Shown here piece by piece: positions 12,798 to 16,911 of a DNA stretch of 64,000 nucleotides. Position numbers and translations under genes: made by a program. The stretch is from Microbacterium sp. GTDB taxonomy: Bacteria > Actinomycetota > Actinomycetes > Actinomycetales > Microbacteriaceae. The DNA is taken from NCBI GenBank assembly GCA_031277945.1, contig JAITLK010000003.1, forward strand, positions 643,104 to 707,103, in the 5' to 3' direction. Every line of letters begins with the position of its first letter. The stretch's first letter is position 1. Below the pieces are notes generated by a model. It had not been told where the DNA came from, did not search any database, and saw only the letters and a list, made by a program, of their open reading frames with translations.

Positions 12798-12893
12798 TAA
12801 CGACCGGTATCACAGCCTACTACCTCCGCCTGAGCGCCCGCGGCCGGTGTGCACGGCGCCGGAACCGGCCGTGCATCTGGGAGAATCGGAGCG

Positions 12894-13337
12894 ATGAACG
12901 ACAGCGCCACGCCCTCGCCCGACTCCGCCTCCGCCTTCGGGCCCGCCGCCGACGCGGCCCCGGGGTCTGCAGATCCGTCCGACCTGCTCGCAGAGCTGGC
13001 ATCGCGCGCGGAGGCGGGAGAGGCCACACACGTCGAGCTGGTGGACGCCTTCCTGGAAGCGACGGTGTATGTGCCCTCCGTCACCGATCCCGAGGGCGGC
13101 ACCATCGACCCCGTGATCACGCGCGTGGACGAGGTCGACTACATGGTGGTCGCCAGCACCACCGGCGCACTGGAGCACACCGGTGACGTGGCCAGATTCG
13201 GCGTTCCGATGAACGGGCGCAGCGTGATCACCGGCATGAACCCCGAGCTGGCCCTGATGATCAACCTGTCCTTCGGAGCATTCGCGATGCCGAAGGCGAT
13301 GCTCGACGACATCAGGTCGCGGAACCCGCTCGGTTGA
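12894..13337 (+). CDS. SseB-like N-terminal-domain protein
   Basis: A 147-residue protein. After an acidic, alanine-rich leader of about 35 residues comes a domain with LVDAFLEATVYVPSV, DYMVVASTTGALEHT, and GRSVITGMNPELALMINLSFG. This pattern (short alpha/beta domain, then a G-x(6)-NPxLxLxxN run) resembles the SseB protein N-terminal family, whose role in actinobacteria is unclear. The ATG has GGAG upstream. It diverges from sucC and is followed by a TetR gene on the same strand. The larger SseB-like protein encoded at 45246-46331 is a possible distant paralogue. Confidence 0.6.
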   Translation: MNDSATPSPDSASAFGPAADAAPGSADPSDLLAELASRAEAGEATHVELVDAFLEATVYVPSVTDPEGGTIDPVITRVDEVDYMVVASTTGALEHTGDVARFGVPMNGRSVITGMNPELALMINLSFGAFAMPKAMLDDIRSRNPLG

Positions 13338-13386: not shown

Positions 13387-14055
13387 ATGAGCACTCCTCG
13401 TCAGAGCACTGCAGACGTCTCGTCCGTGGTCGCCGCCGCCCTCACCCTGTTCGAGGAGCAGGGCTTCGAGCAGACGTCGGTCGATCAGATCGCCAAGGCC
13501 GCCGGCGTGTCCCGGTCCACGTTCTTCCGCCAGTTCGGCGGCAAGGACGACGTGGTGTTCGCCGATCACGAGTACGTGCTCGCCGAGGCGCGCGCCTTCC
13601 TGGATGACCGGCATGAGAATCCGTGGGTCGCGGTGACGGACGGAGCCATGCTGGTCTTCAAGCACTTCACGTCCGACATCGACGTGGCACGCAAGCGCTA
13701 CGAGCTCGTACGGCGCATCCCCGCCCTCCGCGAGCGCGAGATCGTCACCGTGTTCCGCTACGAGCGCCTGTTCGACGAGTACCTGCGCATCGCTCTGCCC
13801 GGGCTCGACCCGGTGGACGCGGTGGGATTCGCCGCCGTGGTCGCTGCCGTTCACAACCATGTGCTGCGACAGATGCTGCGCGGTCGCAAGGTGCCCGCGG
13901 CCACCCTGCGGGCAGCGCTGGATGATGCGCTGCACCGTTTCGGCGTGCACCCGGACGGTGCCCGCGCCGCCGAGGACGACGTGGTGGTGGCCGTCTTCCC
14001 CCGCTCGATGCCGATGGCAGAAGTCACCCGTCGCGTGCAGGCGCAGATCGGCTGA
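13387..14055 (+). CDS. TetR/AcrR family transcriptional regulator
   Basis: A 222-residue regulator. Its N-terminal helix-turn-helix is TSVDQIAKAAGVSRSTFFRQFGGKDDVVF at about residues 33-61, a textbook TetR recognition helix; the rest is an all-helical ligand-binding domain. The target genes are not obvious. It could act on itself, on the SseB-like gene before it, or on the type VII-associated cluster 90 bases after it on the same strand. Confidence 0.9.
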   Translation: MSTPRQSTADVSSVVAAALTLFEEQGFEQTSVDQIAKAAGVSRSTFFRQFGGKDDVVFADHEYVLAEARAFLDDRHENPWVAVTDGAMLVFKHFTSDIDVARKRYELVRRIPALREREIVTVFRYERLFDEYLRIALPGLDPVDAVGFAAVVAAVHNHVLRQMLRGRKVPAATLRAALDDALHRFGVHPDGARAAEDDVVVAVFPRSMPMAEVTRRVQAQIG

Positions 14056-14144: not shown

Positions 14145-14891
14145 ATGACCGACGATGCTGAGCGATTCTTCGAACTGCGAGATGAATTCGACCGAGAAGC
14201 GCAGATGTACACCGAAGCGGCGGAGGGCGAGCAGCCCGCGTCGCACACCGATGAGACCGGTGCTCTCACCGTGAACATCGACTCCGACGGGCTGATCTCG
14301 TTCGCGATATCGAACGACTGGCAGAACCACATCGAGGCCTCCGCTCTCGCGGGCCGGCTGGTCGAGACCTTCCAGCAGCTCAGCACGGCTCGTCTGGAGG
14401 CGTGGGGAACACACCTCGGCGAGGCTCAGGAGCACGAGCACCGTGCCACGCCGCTGCCGCCCACAAGCGATTCCGTGGCGGAGAAGCTGCGCACCGCGTT
14501 GACCGAGAGTCCCGACGCGGCCTCCCAGGTGGAGCGGATGCTGGAGAACGTCCTGGAGATGCTCGAGGACATGACCGCTGGCTTCGATGAGACGTTCGCC
14601 ACCGCGATGAGCCGCGGCGGACGCGTGGACACCGTCGCTCCGCTGTCCGGTCACCTCACGGTGAACCTGACGACGGGCGGCCAGTTGCAGGGCATCACGC
14701 TGGATTCCCGCTGGGCTGCCCGCACGGCGGCGACGCAGATCGCACGTGAACTGAACGAGGCGCTGCGCGAAGCACACGAGGCGACCGCGGAGGAGCGCAC
14801 GTCCACGGCTCTCGCCGGAACGCCGCTGGAGAAGTACCAGCGCCTCATCGACGACCCCGACGGCTTCGTGTCGTTCATGACAGGACGGTAG
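14145..14891 (+). CDS. Protein with two tandem YbaB/EbfC-like domains, first gene of a type VII-associated cluster
   Basis: A 248-residue protein. Two stretches align with each other: residues 39-79 (GALTVNIDSDGLISFAISNDW...) and 169-210 (GHLTVNLTTGGQLQGITLDSRW...), each followed by an amphipathic helix (ALAGRLVETFQQL / QIARELNEALREA). This beta-beta-helix pattern is that of YbaB/EbfC proteins found beside mycobacterial ESX loci (EspL type). An acidic helical linker of about 90 residues separates them. A purine-rich site precedes the ATG; TTG one codon earlier is possible. It lies two bases before the EspC-like gene. A chaperone or adaptor role for the neighbouring secreted-type proteins is inferred. 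Confidence 0.72.
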   Translation: MTDDAERFFELRDEFDREAQMYTEAAEGEQPASHTDETGALTVNIDSDGLISFAISNDWQNHIEASALAGRLVETFQQLSTARLEAWGTHLGEAQEHEHRATPLPPTSDSVAEKLRTALTESPDAASQVERMLENVLEMLEDMTAGFDETFATAMSRGGRVDTVAPLSGHLTVNLTTGGQLQGITLDSRWAARTAATQIARELNEALREAHEATAEERTSTALAGTPLEKYQRLIDDPDGFVSFMTGR

Positions 14892-14893
14892 AA

Positions 14894-15211
14894 ATGGCTC
14901 CCGATCTCCGCACCAACTTCGAGGCGCTCACCAAGGACGCGTCCATCTGGGACGAGGCATCCAACACGCTCCGCACCAGCGGAAATTCGATCGCCGCCAT
15001 TCAGGTGACTCACGGCGCGTTCTCCTTCGCAGCCATGGATGTCGCCGATCAGTACGCAGAACTGCACCAGCGTGTCACGCAGCTCCTCGCGGACGGCGCT
15101 CAGGCGGCGAGCGACGGCGCCACGGCACTGCGCGAAGTGCGCGACATGTATCAGCAGATGGAAGAGGGAACCGTATCCGAGTTGTCGCGCATGTGGCAGC
15201 CGGTGGTCTGA
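14894..15211 (+). CDS. EspC/WXG100-like small type VII secretion-associated protein
   Basis: A 105-residue, signal-peptide-free, mostly helical protein. It has the features of the EspC (ESX-1 secretion-associated) family: an N-terminal helix with LRTNFEALTKDASIWDEASNTL, a central turn, and a C-terminal helix ending with the YxxxE motif YQQME at residues 86-90, the general export signal of type VII substrates. It is translated two bases after the YbaB-like gene. Homology is inferred from size, motif and context, as sequence conservation in this family is low. Confidence 0.65.
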   Translation: MAPDLRTNFEALTKDASIWDEASNTLRTSGNSIAAIQVTHGAFSFAAMDVADQYAELHQRVTQLLADGAQAASDGATALREVRDMYQQMEEGTVSELSRMWQPVV

Positions 15212-15224
15212 GGGGGACGACGAC

Positions 15225-15920
15225 ATGAATCCGATCATCGAGCGCGCACTGGCACTCCTGGAGAAGATCCGCCAGAAGATCGAAGAGATCGTGCGGCTGG
15301 TCAATGCCGCGCTTCGGCTCCTGCCCGCCGCGCTGTCCTGGGTGGCAGACCGGCTGCGTGAGGCCTGGGACGGCATGCTGCAGAAGATCGGCGAGATGTG
15401 GAACGCGATCGCCGAGTTCTTCAGTCACGTCGGCGACCCCTTCATGCTCAACGGCGCCGCCCAGGGATGGAAGACCGCCGCGGCCCAGGTGTCACGGATC
15501 AACGACACGATCATGGACGCCAACCTCTCCGTCGACGACAAGTGGACGGGCAGCGGCGCCGACCAGTACAAGCAGCGCATCGAGACGCAACGCCGCGCCA
15601 ACACGTCGATCATGGCGGACTACGCCGAGAACATCAGCGGTGCCATGACCGGCCTCGCCGTGGCGATCGGCGTGTTCTGGGGCGCGGTCGTCGTGGCGAT
15701 CCTCACTCTACTGGGCGCCCTCGCGGGAGCAGCCGTGGCGACGGGAACGATCGTCGGACTGCCCGCGGTGCCCGTGCTGGTGACGATCGGCGTCGTCGCG
15801 TTCCTGGCCGCTGTGGGCGCTGGTGTCGCCGTGCTGTATCTGACGGCCGGGCAGTCGCGTGCGACCATGATGTCCACCGCGGCGGGCATCGCGTCCTGGC
15901 CGCCGCTCGCGAACGCATGA
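15225..15920 (+). CDS. WXG-motif protein with a C-terminal double-membrane-spanning tail
   Basis: A 231-residue protein. Residues 1-70 are amphipathic helices. From residue 78 comes a WXG100-like hairpin, with the WTG turn at 107-109 (DKWTGSGADQYKQR) between two long helices. Two hydrophobic segments follow at about 143-168 and 180-206. WXG100 proteins are normally 100 residues and soluble; here the hairpin is extended at both ends and anchored, as in some polymorphic toxin or channel-like type VII effectors. A strong canonical C-terminal YxxxD/E signal is not evident. The next gene starts inside its stop (ATGA). Confidence 0.7.
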   Translation: MNPIIERALALLEKIRQKIEEIVRLVNAALRLLPAALSWVADRLREAWDGMLQKIGEMWNAIAEFFSHVGDPFMLNGAAQGWKTAAAQVSRINDTIMDANLSVDDKWTGSGADQYKQRIETQRRANTSIMADYAENISGAMTGLAVAIGVFWGAVVVAILTLLGALAGAAVATGTIVGLPAVPVLVTIGVVAFLAAVGAGVAVLYLTAGQSRATMMSTAAGIASWPPLANA

Positions 15921-16378
15921 CCGTTCCCCCCGCGCCTGTGCCGCAGCATGACCCAAGGACCGCGCGCATCATCGCGCGGTCCTCGGGTGTGCTCGCGCTG
16001 GCCGCCGCCGTGGCCACAACCGCCTTCGCTCTCGCCGCCTCCGAACCCCGCCTGATCGCCGCAGCCGTGACCGCACTCGTTCTGGGCCTCCTCAGCCTGT
16101 GCATCGCGGGATTCCGCTCGGCGCGGCCCGCGAATGCGAGCGCCGACGCGCCATCGCTCGCTCCGCTCGGGTGGCTGTGCGCGGCGACGTACGTCGTCGG
16201 CATCGCCGTACCCCTCGTGGGCTTCTTCGTGAGCATCGCGGTCGGGCTGAGCGGTGCGACTCCGCTCGCCGTGATCCTCTTCATCCTCGGAATCCTGTCC
16301 GCTTTCAGCGGGCTGCGCATTCTGCGCGCAGCGATGCTCCGGCGCCAGCAGCTGCCTCCGACGGCTCCCGCCCGATGA
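15917..16378 (+). CDS. Small four-helix membrane protein, cluster gene 4
   Basis: A 153-residue protein of unknown family. A short proline-rich N-terminus (MTVPPAPVPQHDPRTAR) is followed by about four membrane helices (SGVLALAAAVATTAFALAA; LIAAAVTALVLGLLSLCIA; WLCAATYVVGIAVPLVGFFVSIAV; LAVILFILGILSAFSGLRIL) and a basic tail. Overlap with both neighbours (ATGA at each end) shows that it belongs to the same operon. Its paralogue-like successor suggests that they form a membrane complex with the WXG protein. Confidence 0.7.
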   Translation: MTVPPAPVPQHDPRTARIIARSSGVLALAAAVATTAFALAASEPRLIAAAVTALVLGLLSLCIAGFRSARPANASADAPSLAPLGWLCAATYVVGIAVPLVGFFVSIAVGLSGATPLAVILFILGILSAFSGLRILRAAMLRRQQLPPTAPAR

Positions 16379-16821
16379 CGACTGCGCGCGGGGCGATGGC
16401 GGCGCGCGCCGCGGCCTGGGTGGCAGCGGCCGCCACGATCGCCTCCGCCACGACGGCTCTTCTGACCTGGCTGAACGTCGGCGCGGAAGCGGTTCTCGTT
16501 CCCCCCGCCGTGGTGGCAACGCTGCTCACCGCGGTCGGACTGATGACCACGGGCTACGGCTTCTCGCTGGCCCGCTCAGCCCCAGGCGCTGCCGTGTCGG
16601 TCGGCCCGCTCGTCCTCCTGACCGTGGTGGCGGCCGTCGACGGGGTCATCGCGAGCATGGGCATCTTCGTCCTCGCATCGTCTGTCGGCGCCCAGAACGC
16701 GTCAACGGTATCGATCATCGTGGTGCTCCTGGGTCTGACGATCACGATCTGCGGCCTGCGCATGATCCGCATCATTCGAACCCGCGCCGGCCTGCCGTCT
16801 CCGCCGACCGGCTCTGACTGA
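16375..16821 (+). CDS. Small four-helix membrane protein, cluster gene 5
   Basis: A 148-residue hydrophobic protein beginning MTTARGAMAARAAAWVAAAA with four predicted membrane helices, ending ITICGLRMIRIIRTRAGLPS. The end (GLRMIRIIRTRAG) resembles the SGLRILRAAMLRR end of the preceding product, so the two may be diverged duplicates. It overlaps the previous stop as ATGA, and a hairpin terminator closes the operon 57 bases later. No known family is recognised. Confidence 0.68.
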   Translation: MTTARGAMAARAAAWVAAAATIASATTALLTWLNVGAEAVLVPPAVVATLLTAVGLMTTGYGFSLARSAPGAAVSVGPLVLLTVVAAVDGVIASMGIFVLASSVGAQNASTVSIIVVLLGLTITICGLRMIRIIRTRAGLPSPPTGSD

Positions 16822-16877: not shown

Positions 16878-16911
16878 ACAGACGGGCACCCGCCAGCGGG
16901 TGCCCGTCTGT
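16878..16911. terminator. 16-bp hairpin between the type VII cluster and the second sugar operon
   Basis: ACAGACGGGCACCCGC (16878-16893) pairs perfectly with 16896-16911. It lies between converging transcripts and directly abuts the stop of the MalG-type permease at 16914. Confidence 0.85.

Follow-up and report, generated by a model that had tools for sequence, protein, structure and literature searches.

We found that three adjacent genes in a 64-kb stretch of a Microbacterium genome probably encode a substrate module of an ESX (type VII) secretion system, comparable to the mycobacterial espACD and espEFH groups and exported by a machine that is not linked to it. The stretch, called the window here, comprises 64,000 nucleotides (G000:C1:643104-707103) of an assembly of 1.68 Mb that is 44.5% complete; genomes are numbered G and fetched loci L throughout. 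The module heads a plus-strand cluster of five genes: gene 1 (14145-14891, 248 residues) encodes a tandem YbaB-fold protein and proposed substrate chaperone; gene 2 (14894-15211, 105 residues) an EspC-like helical partner with the tail motif YQQME; gene 3 (15225-15920, 231 residues) a WXG protein, the proposed exported partner, marked by a hydrophobic hairpin and a C-terminal Trp-Pro (WP); and gene 4 (15917-16378, 153 residues) and gene 5 (16375-16821, 148 residues) four-helix membrane proteins, referred to as TM4. An initial annotation, made from the sequence alone, had described such a compact five-gene cluster, and a check of the open reading frames confirmed it, with 2 bases between genes 1 and 2, 13 between genes 2 and 3, and ATGA overlaps at the last two junctions. 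The trio of genes 1-3 repeats the Esp set in a form in which the YbaB unit is doubled and the WXG protein is a short one with a hairpin, and is therefore taken as an ESX substrate module.

The order of genes 1-3 is kept within the Microbacteriaceae, and two other families of the same taxonomic order share it. All 14 of the closest neighbourhoods (L044-L054, L060-L062) have the three genes adjacent and in this order. Because the same-strand order of YbaB-type, EspC-like, and WXG genes, identified with profiles, also recurs in 22 of 27 loci (L002-L028) that were found starting from gene 3 alone, we consider the cluster to be more than a chance arrangement; in L008-L011 and L014, which have short flanks, only gene 3 is visible. 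The order was absent from L029-L043 within flanks of 1.5 kb. The large-EspC-type loci, refetched with wider flanks (L057-L059, L063), showed it in four of four cases, and in three of these gene 2 lies within a protein of ~550 residues. Likewise, the order was present in all five wider diverged loci (L125, L127, L128, L130, L131), and a WXG100-like gene lies directly ahead of the trio in L127, L128, and L131. The gene-3 profile matched 9 of 159 genomes drawn from the order, the window's genome among them; four genomes of two other families (L133-L136) have the whole trio and the WP end, while L138 shows WP together with a weak EspC-like match, and L139-L141 gave weak matches with neither trio nor WP. 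We also note that L058, L059, and L063 hold their diverged trios inside Microbacterium ESX loci, in which the protein of ~550 residues with the EspC-like part is followed by FHA-type and other genes.

Purifying selection acts on genes 1, 2, and 3. We compared the window with its nearest relative found, Microbacterium nymphoidis W2R (G411; NZ_JAJNOD010000001.1), whose gene-3 product is 95% identical, and obtained ratios of nonsynonymous to synonymous substitution rates (dN/dS; one pair, NG86) of 0.17, 0.05, 0.09, 0.27, and 0.34 for genes 1-5. The same comparison gave 0.00-0.06 for neighbouring genes encoding SucC, SucD, a LacI-type protein, and a binding protein, 0.10 for an SseB-like gene, and 0.01 for a TetR-family gene. 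Over 10 matched genomes, mean pairwise identity was highest for gene 3 (65.7%), followed by gene 2 (57.2%), gene 1 (44.8%), and TM4 (31.8%).

Both a family profile and a structural model identify gene 1 as a tandem YbaB-type protein, as the initial annotation had named it. The YbaB family (PF02575) was matched by 11 of 15 gene-1 relatives at E <= 0.05 (best E 2.9e-14); the window protein by itself reached 15.6 bits, under the cut-off of 25.5. The gene-1 model (mean predicted local distance difference test, pLDDT, 84.8; predicted template-modelling score 0.70) runs through a helix, three strands, and a helix, twice. A Foldseek search with this model yielded no matches at E <= 0.001; the top matches (E 0.02-0.04) were mostly single YbaB-type chains (3f42, 1ybx, and 1j8b), with mitoribosomal chains in between, and 5yrx (Rv3716c) and 1pug appeared lower. 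We take 3f42 and 1ybx to be YbaB relatives. Judged by its model, gene 1 consists of two YbaB units in one chain and belongs to the YbaB/EbfC fold family. It resembles the EspD, EspH, and EspL chaperones, and by analogy might have a chaperone role itself: EspH is reported to be YbaB-like by structure prediction and to bind EspE, and its homologue EspD stabilises EspA and EspC, with the authors proposing dedicated chaperones (PMC6107294), while EspL has a YbaB-type domain and interacts with EspD (PMC6319747).

Gene 2 had been described as EspC-like with YQQME in its tail. The EspC type is supported and the motif is present in the window protein, although the literal YxxxE is a minority form among relatives. 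Of 27 compact EspC-like proteins, 25 have [YF]xxx[DE] (10 with Y and 15 with F) and 2 have neither form, where a motif at any position within the final 45 residues was counted, with no chance control; the motif sits at the same alignment column in 14 of 15 gene-2 relatives (counted by eye). Only 1 of 11 larger EspC-like proteins from diverged loci (L030-L038, L040, L042) has the tail motif, but these have a longer C-terminus and may not be comparable. Against the T7SS_ESX_EspC family (PF10824), 3 of 15 gene-2 family members matched at E <= 0.05, and the window protein scored 19.0 bits, under the cut-off of 23.5.

Gene 3 combines WXG-type features with membrane segments, as had been suggested. 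W-T-G stands at residues 107-109, with W-x-G present in 14 of 15 close relatives, and a hydrophobic stretch covers residues 144-209 (Kyte-Doolittle windows). Of 48 loci, 46 have the C-terminal WP among the final 30 residues (exceptions L009 and L013), and 42 have at least two hydrophobic segments; these loci take in the window itself (L002), and L057 repeats L029. Among 15 gene-3 family members, 8 matched EspA_EspE (PF18879) at E <= 0.05, with 16.1 bits for the window protein and a best score of 17.6 among the matches listed, below the cut-off of 27; the best gene-3 score for WXG100_2 (PF25547), 24.7 bits, was likewise under its cut-off of 27. A search of solved structures with gene-2 and gene-3 profiles returned designed barrels, influenza haemagglutinin, and a weak match to PPE41 (residues 72-117, E 0.19), and was not used.

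If the trio is an ESX substrate module that depends on a machine encoded elsewhere, as the initial annotation had proposed, its carriers are expected to encode such a machine. No EccC-type ATPase or mycosin had been noticed in the window, and indeed a phmmer search of the frames of the 64-kb window with relatives' EccB, EccD, MycP, and EccC gave no match. A search for Ecc homologues in carrier genomes did find them. EccB (PF05108) has matches in 88 of the 366 genus genomes, and the match exceeds the cut-off in 87. A gene-3 match was found in 39 genus genomes, which leaves 38 carriers when the incomplete G000 is left out, and EccB is present in 37 of these 38 carriers compared to 51 of 327 others (Fisher P = 4e-25, kinship ignored). 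The carrier count, made by single-sequence search, misses diverged trios, such that G296 (L125) and G477 (L127) were counted as non-carriers, and some of the 51 EccB-positive non-carriers hold diverged trios; G325 and G585, counted as carriers, have weak gene-3 matches and no YbaB-profile match. In a draw from the family, EccB was present in 12 of 12 further carriers and in 0 of 10 hand-picked non-carriers.

The co-occurrence extends to carriers in which the trio and the machine lie apart. In 32 of 49 EccB-bearing carriers (25 of 37 in the genus and 7 of 12 in the family), no more than 10 kb separates gene 3 from EccB; gene 3 is further away on the same contig in 7 genus and 4 family genomes, and on another contig in 5 and 1, respectively. 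EccB was found in 12 of the 13 genus carriers not within 10 kb of it (P = 7e-9, kinship ignored). The four other-family genomes with the trio (L133-L136) all have EccB, with no matched ESX gene within ~10 kb of the trio. M. nymphoidis has an ESX locus on another contig with EccC, MycP, EccB, EccD, and two WXG100 genes; its EccC is above both NCBIfam cut-offs (EccCa, 864 vs. 509 bits; EccCb, 791 vs. 347 bits), and one WXG100 protein of the pair, at 26.8 bits, falls just under the cut-off of 27.3. We observed that a Microbacterium ESX locus of this type (L045:1881-8842) has DUF58, transglutaminase-like, FHA, and PP2C genes beside the core.

Several observations weigh against the assignment of the trio to ESX substrates. 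First, none of the Pfam matches of window proteins 1-5, taken singly, reaches its curated cut-off, and thus the names of the genes rest on family profiles, fold, and context; the profile search that the initial annotation had suggested for YbaB, EspC, and WXG domains yielded matches across the families, but not for any single window protein at a curated cut-off. Second, the hairpin is not universal, with no hydrophobic segment in L125, L128, L130, and L131, and only one in L012 and L127. Third, the gene-3 model is poor (mean pLDDT 56.2, from 11 sequences), and for this reason no fold search was made with it; its low-confidence helices at 75-98 and 110-171 flank W-x-G, and the proposed WXG helix pair thus rests on sequence. 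Fourth, one carrier, G526, has no EccB; its gene-3 match is weak (E 5.8e-4), and the genome is 81% complete. Finally, the window's own assembly gave no EccB match and, as its only EccC-like protein, an orphan ATPase. Sequence flanking the M. nymphoidis ESX locus on the right also returned only short or diverged matches in this assembly (best 67% over ~590 bases), and the missing EccB is therefore uninformative; the assembly seems to lack the region in which the relative has its ESX locus.

The closest parallels to the trio are the espA-espC-espD and espE-espF-espH groups of mycobacterial ESX-1, in which a YbaB-like stabiliser is encoded together with partners of the YxxxD/E and WXG types (PMC6107294), a grouping that the trio appears from its sequences to share; the comparison was made through Pfam models, which stand in for the M. 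tuberculosis Esp proteins. As with espACD, which is reported to lie more than 260 kb from ESX-1 (PMC6107294), the module in the window is unlinked from a machine. Unlike either group, the trio has a duplicated YbaB unit in one chain and the reversed order of YbaB, EspC-like, and WXG; its WXG protein is short, contains a hydrophobic hairpin, and has WP near its C-terminus; it belongs to a monoderm host and is followed by small membrane proteins; and the Pfam cut-offs for EspC and EspA_EspE are not reached. The machine associated with the module resembles ESX-4, the ancestral actinobacterial ESX cluster, which has been reported in actinobacteria without a mycomembrane (PMC4791881), in that the associated loci have EccB, EccC, EccD, MycP, and a WXG100 pair. 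In contrast to ESX-4, the Microbacterium loci add DUF58, transglutaminase-like, FHA, and PP2C genes, and ESX-4 is a provisional label for these loci, given on EccB, EccC, EccD, MycP, and the WXG100 pair.

We suggest that the tandem YbaB protein would bind and stabilise its cognate substrates in the cytosol, and that the EspC-like and WXG proteins would pair as a helical bundle that presents a bipartite signal. ESX substrates are reported to carry such a signal, WXG plus YxxxD/E (PMC6319747), and a helical structure is predicted for EspC and for the N-terminal portion of EspA, the protein with the WXG (PMC3227618). A machine of EccC, EccB, EccD, and MycP, encoded at another place on the chromosome, would then take up the pair and export both proteins together, after which the WXG hairpin would be in, or be inserted into, the membrane of the cell's own envelope or of a neighbour's. 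The products of genes 4 and 5 would be ESX-associated and would help where the WXG protein meets the membrane, either as a partner or in self-protection.

Genes 4 and 5 are separable from genes 1-3 and are not fixed parts of the module. As had been noted, they encode two similar four-helix membrane proteins, with four hydrophobic segments each (Kyte-Doolittle) and 26% identity to each other; the gene-4/TM4 family matched no Pfam family. In the TM4 tree, an orthologue of gene 4 is found only in the nearest relative, and after M. nymphoidis the closest protein to gene 5 is the single TM4 of L045. The TM4 profile matched 25 of 366 genus genomes, 18 of them at E < 1e-10; 15 of these 18 have the trio, and G384, G469, and G491 do not. 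TM4 adjoins MycP in ESX loci (L124-L129, slightly further off in L125), and in some ESX loci it stands beside MycP with no trio. In many trio loci (for example, L052, L054, and L056), the small membrane proteins behind gene 3 are not matched by the TM4 profile. G384, which has no EccB, keeps a lone TM4 40 bases behind what is presumably a DhaM-like gene; at the corresponding site, G530 has the DhaM-like gene, the trio, and TM4, with the next gene 96% identical to that of G384 and the presumed DhaK-like product 92% identical. The TM4 proteins of G384 and G530 are sisters in the tree (99/98 support). Since genes 3 and 4 overlap, we infer that G384 lost the trio rather than never having had it, in this one case.

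We considered that the cluster might instead encode a membrane toxin and its immunity proteins, such that the exported WXG protein depolarises competitor membranes via its hairpin and genes 4 and 5 encode membrane immunity proteins, an alternative that we hold to be possible but distinctly less probable. The precedent is the type VIIb pairs EsxX/ExiCD, TelE/TipE, and TspA/TsaI of S. aureus and S. gallolyticus, in which a cargo with a membrane-active region is encoded beside small proteins that are protective (PMC12744356, PMC10434224); some of these protective proteins are membrane proteins found as orphans (PMC12744356, PMC10434224), and for EsxX and TspA both immunity genes that occur as orphans and immunity proteins in the membrane have been described (PMC12744356). 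The behaviour of TM4 fits this picture: the gene shares an ATGA overlap with gene 3, is present twice in the window, encodes the least conserved product (31.8%) with the highest dN/dS (0.27, 0.34), and occurs without the trio in 3 of 18 strong-match genomes, including the lone TM4 that G384 keeps at the trio site of G530. TM4 is still under purifying selection, however, and because ESX loci (L124, L126-L129) have it at a position of its own next to MycP, it may be an accessory of the machine. The hairpin, too, points both ways, with a loose glycine-zipper pattern inside it in 13 of 15 rows, mostly as single matches and without a chance control, but without an extended zipper, with no zipper at all in L052, with zippers outside the hairpin in L053, and with the hairpin itself missing in some relatives. 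We rejected a polymorphic toxin with a variable C-terminus, since gene-3 identity is even across four regions (47, 55, 52, and 47%) with no hypervariable end. In further contrast to type VIIb toxins, neither LXG nor DUF5085 was among the Pfam matches of the module proteins and their families, and the machine associated with the module is of the EccB/EccD/MycP type. The toxin-immunity reading and the substrate-module reading share the export steps and differ on the role of the hairpin and of TM4; they are not exclusive.

Bolder, and in our view less credible again, is the proposal that the trio represents a new class of actinobacterial ESX cargo, in which a Trp-Pro-marked hairpin protein with a pseudo-dimeric YbaB escort is exported with the EspC-like partner and depolarises competitor membranes. 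TM4 would then be an immunity protein, orphaned when the machine and the toxin are lost, and espACD and espEFH would have descended, as specialised forms, from a more widespread module with an antibacterial or envelope function.

We consider it very unlikely that the cluster encodes a non-secreted membrane or nucleoid complex, with the YbaB protein working on DNA and the products of genes 3-5 assembling into an envelope complex that has nothing to do with ESX. DNA binding is the classical role of the YbaB family, and genes 3-5 do encode membrane proteins, but the trio tightly co-occurs with EccB and lies inside ESX loci in most carriers, and the phenotypes of EspH and EspL are reported not to be explained by a transcriptional effect (PMC6107294, PMC6319747). 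Least probable of all, and rejected here because its distribution does not follow that of the module, is the use in place of a full ESX machine of the orphan EccCa-like ATPase near the atp operon (G000:C1:331102-334008, L101:6097-9060, minus strand; N-terminal hydrophobic stretch, adjoining a PP2C phosphatase gene; 228.7 bits against TIGR03924, under the cut-off of 509), which is the only EccC-like match in the incomplete genome of the window but has long matches (E < 1e-80) in 30 of 35 family genomes tested, including 12 of 12 non-carriers of the genus, and is missing from the carriers G304, G427, and G609, whereas the trio tracks EccB. Frames of ~1500-1700 residues encode a further EccC-like ATPase in G326 (C11:103215), G302 (C5:44583), G299 (C1:439136), and other genomes, some of them without EccB; it is 42-47% identical to the orphan ATPase over ~230 residues and perhaps belongs to another type VII-like system in the family.

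If the trio is indeed an ESX substrate module, the logic of chaperone, partner, and WXG protein would be older and wider than mycobacterial virulence. The espACD and espEFH groups are known from pathogenic mycobacteria, where substrate is hard to separate from machine, and environmental monoderms with an unlinked module would be a harmless model for testing that logic. They would offer two new handles, the conserved C-terminal Trp-Pro and a chaperone with two YbaB units in one chain, and the TM4 gene kept without machine and trio makes an immunity role directly testable. Searches of openly licensed PMC papers gave us no description of this module. By term search, neither Microbacterium nor YbaB is mentioned in a survey that covers the ESX clusters of 60 actinobacterial species (PMC4791881), and Pontimonas salivibrio is reported to be without a type VII system.

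Two genes upstream of the module on the same strand were considered as further members and rejected, as among 20 fetched neighbourhoods each is present only in that of the nearest relative. The TetR-family gene (13387-14055, plus strand), which had been noted ahead of the cluster, does lie at that position, ending 89 bases upstream of gene 1, but is not part of the module or its regulator; it is 99.5% identical to the M. nymphoidis copy, and its best NCBIfam match is the mycofactocin regulator MftR (84.6 bits, cut-off 224.9). The SseB-like gene before it (12849-13337, plus strand, likely start 12894) weakly matches PF07179 (20 bits, cut-off 21) and the type VII-associated NCBIfam model NF033532 (17.2 bits, cut-off 85). 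Downstream, between the module and a convergent permease gene, a terminator-like inverted repeat with two 16-base arms, read by eye, occupies 16878-16911.

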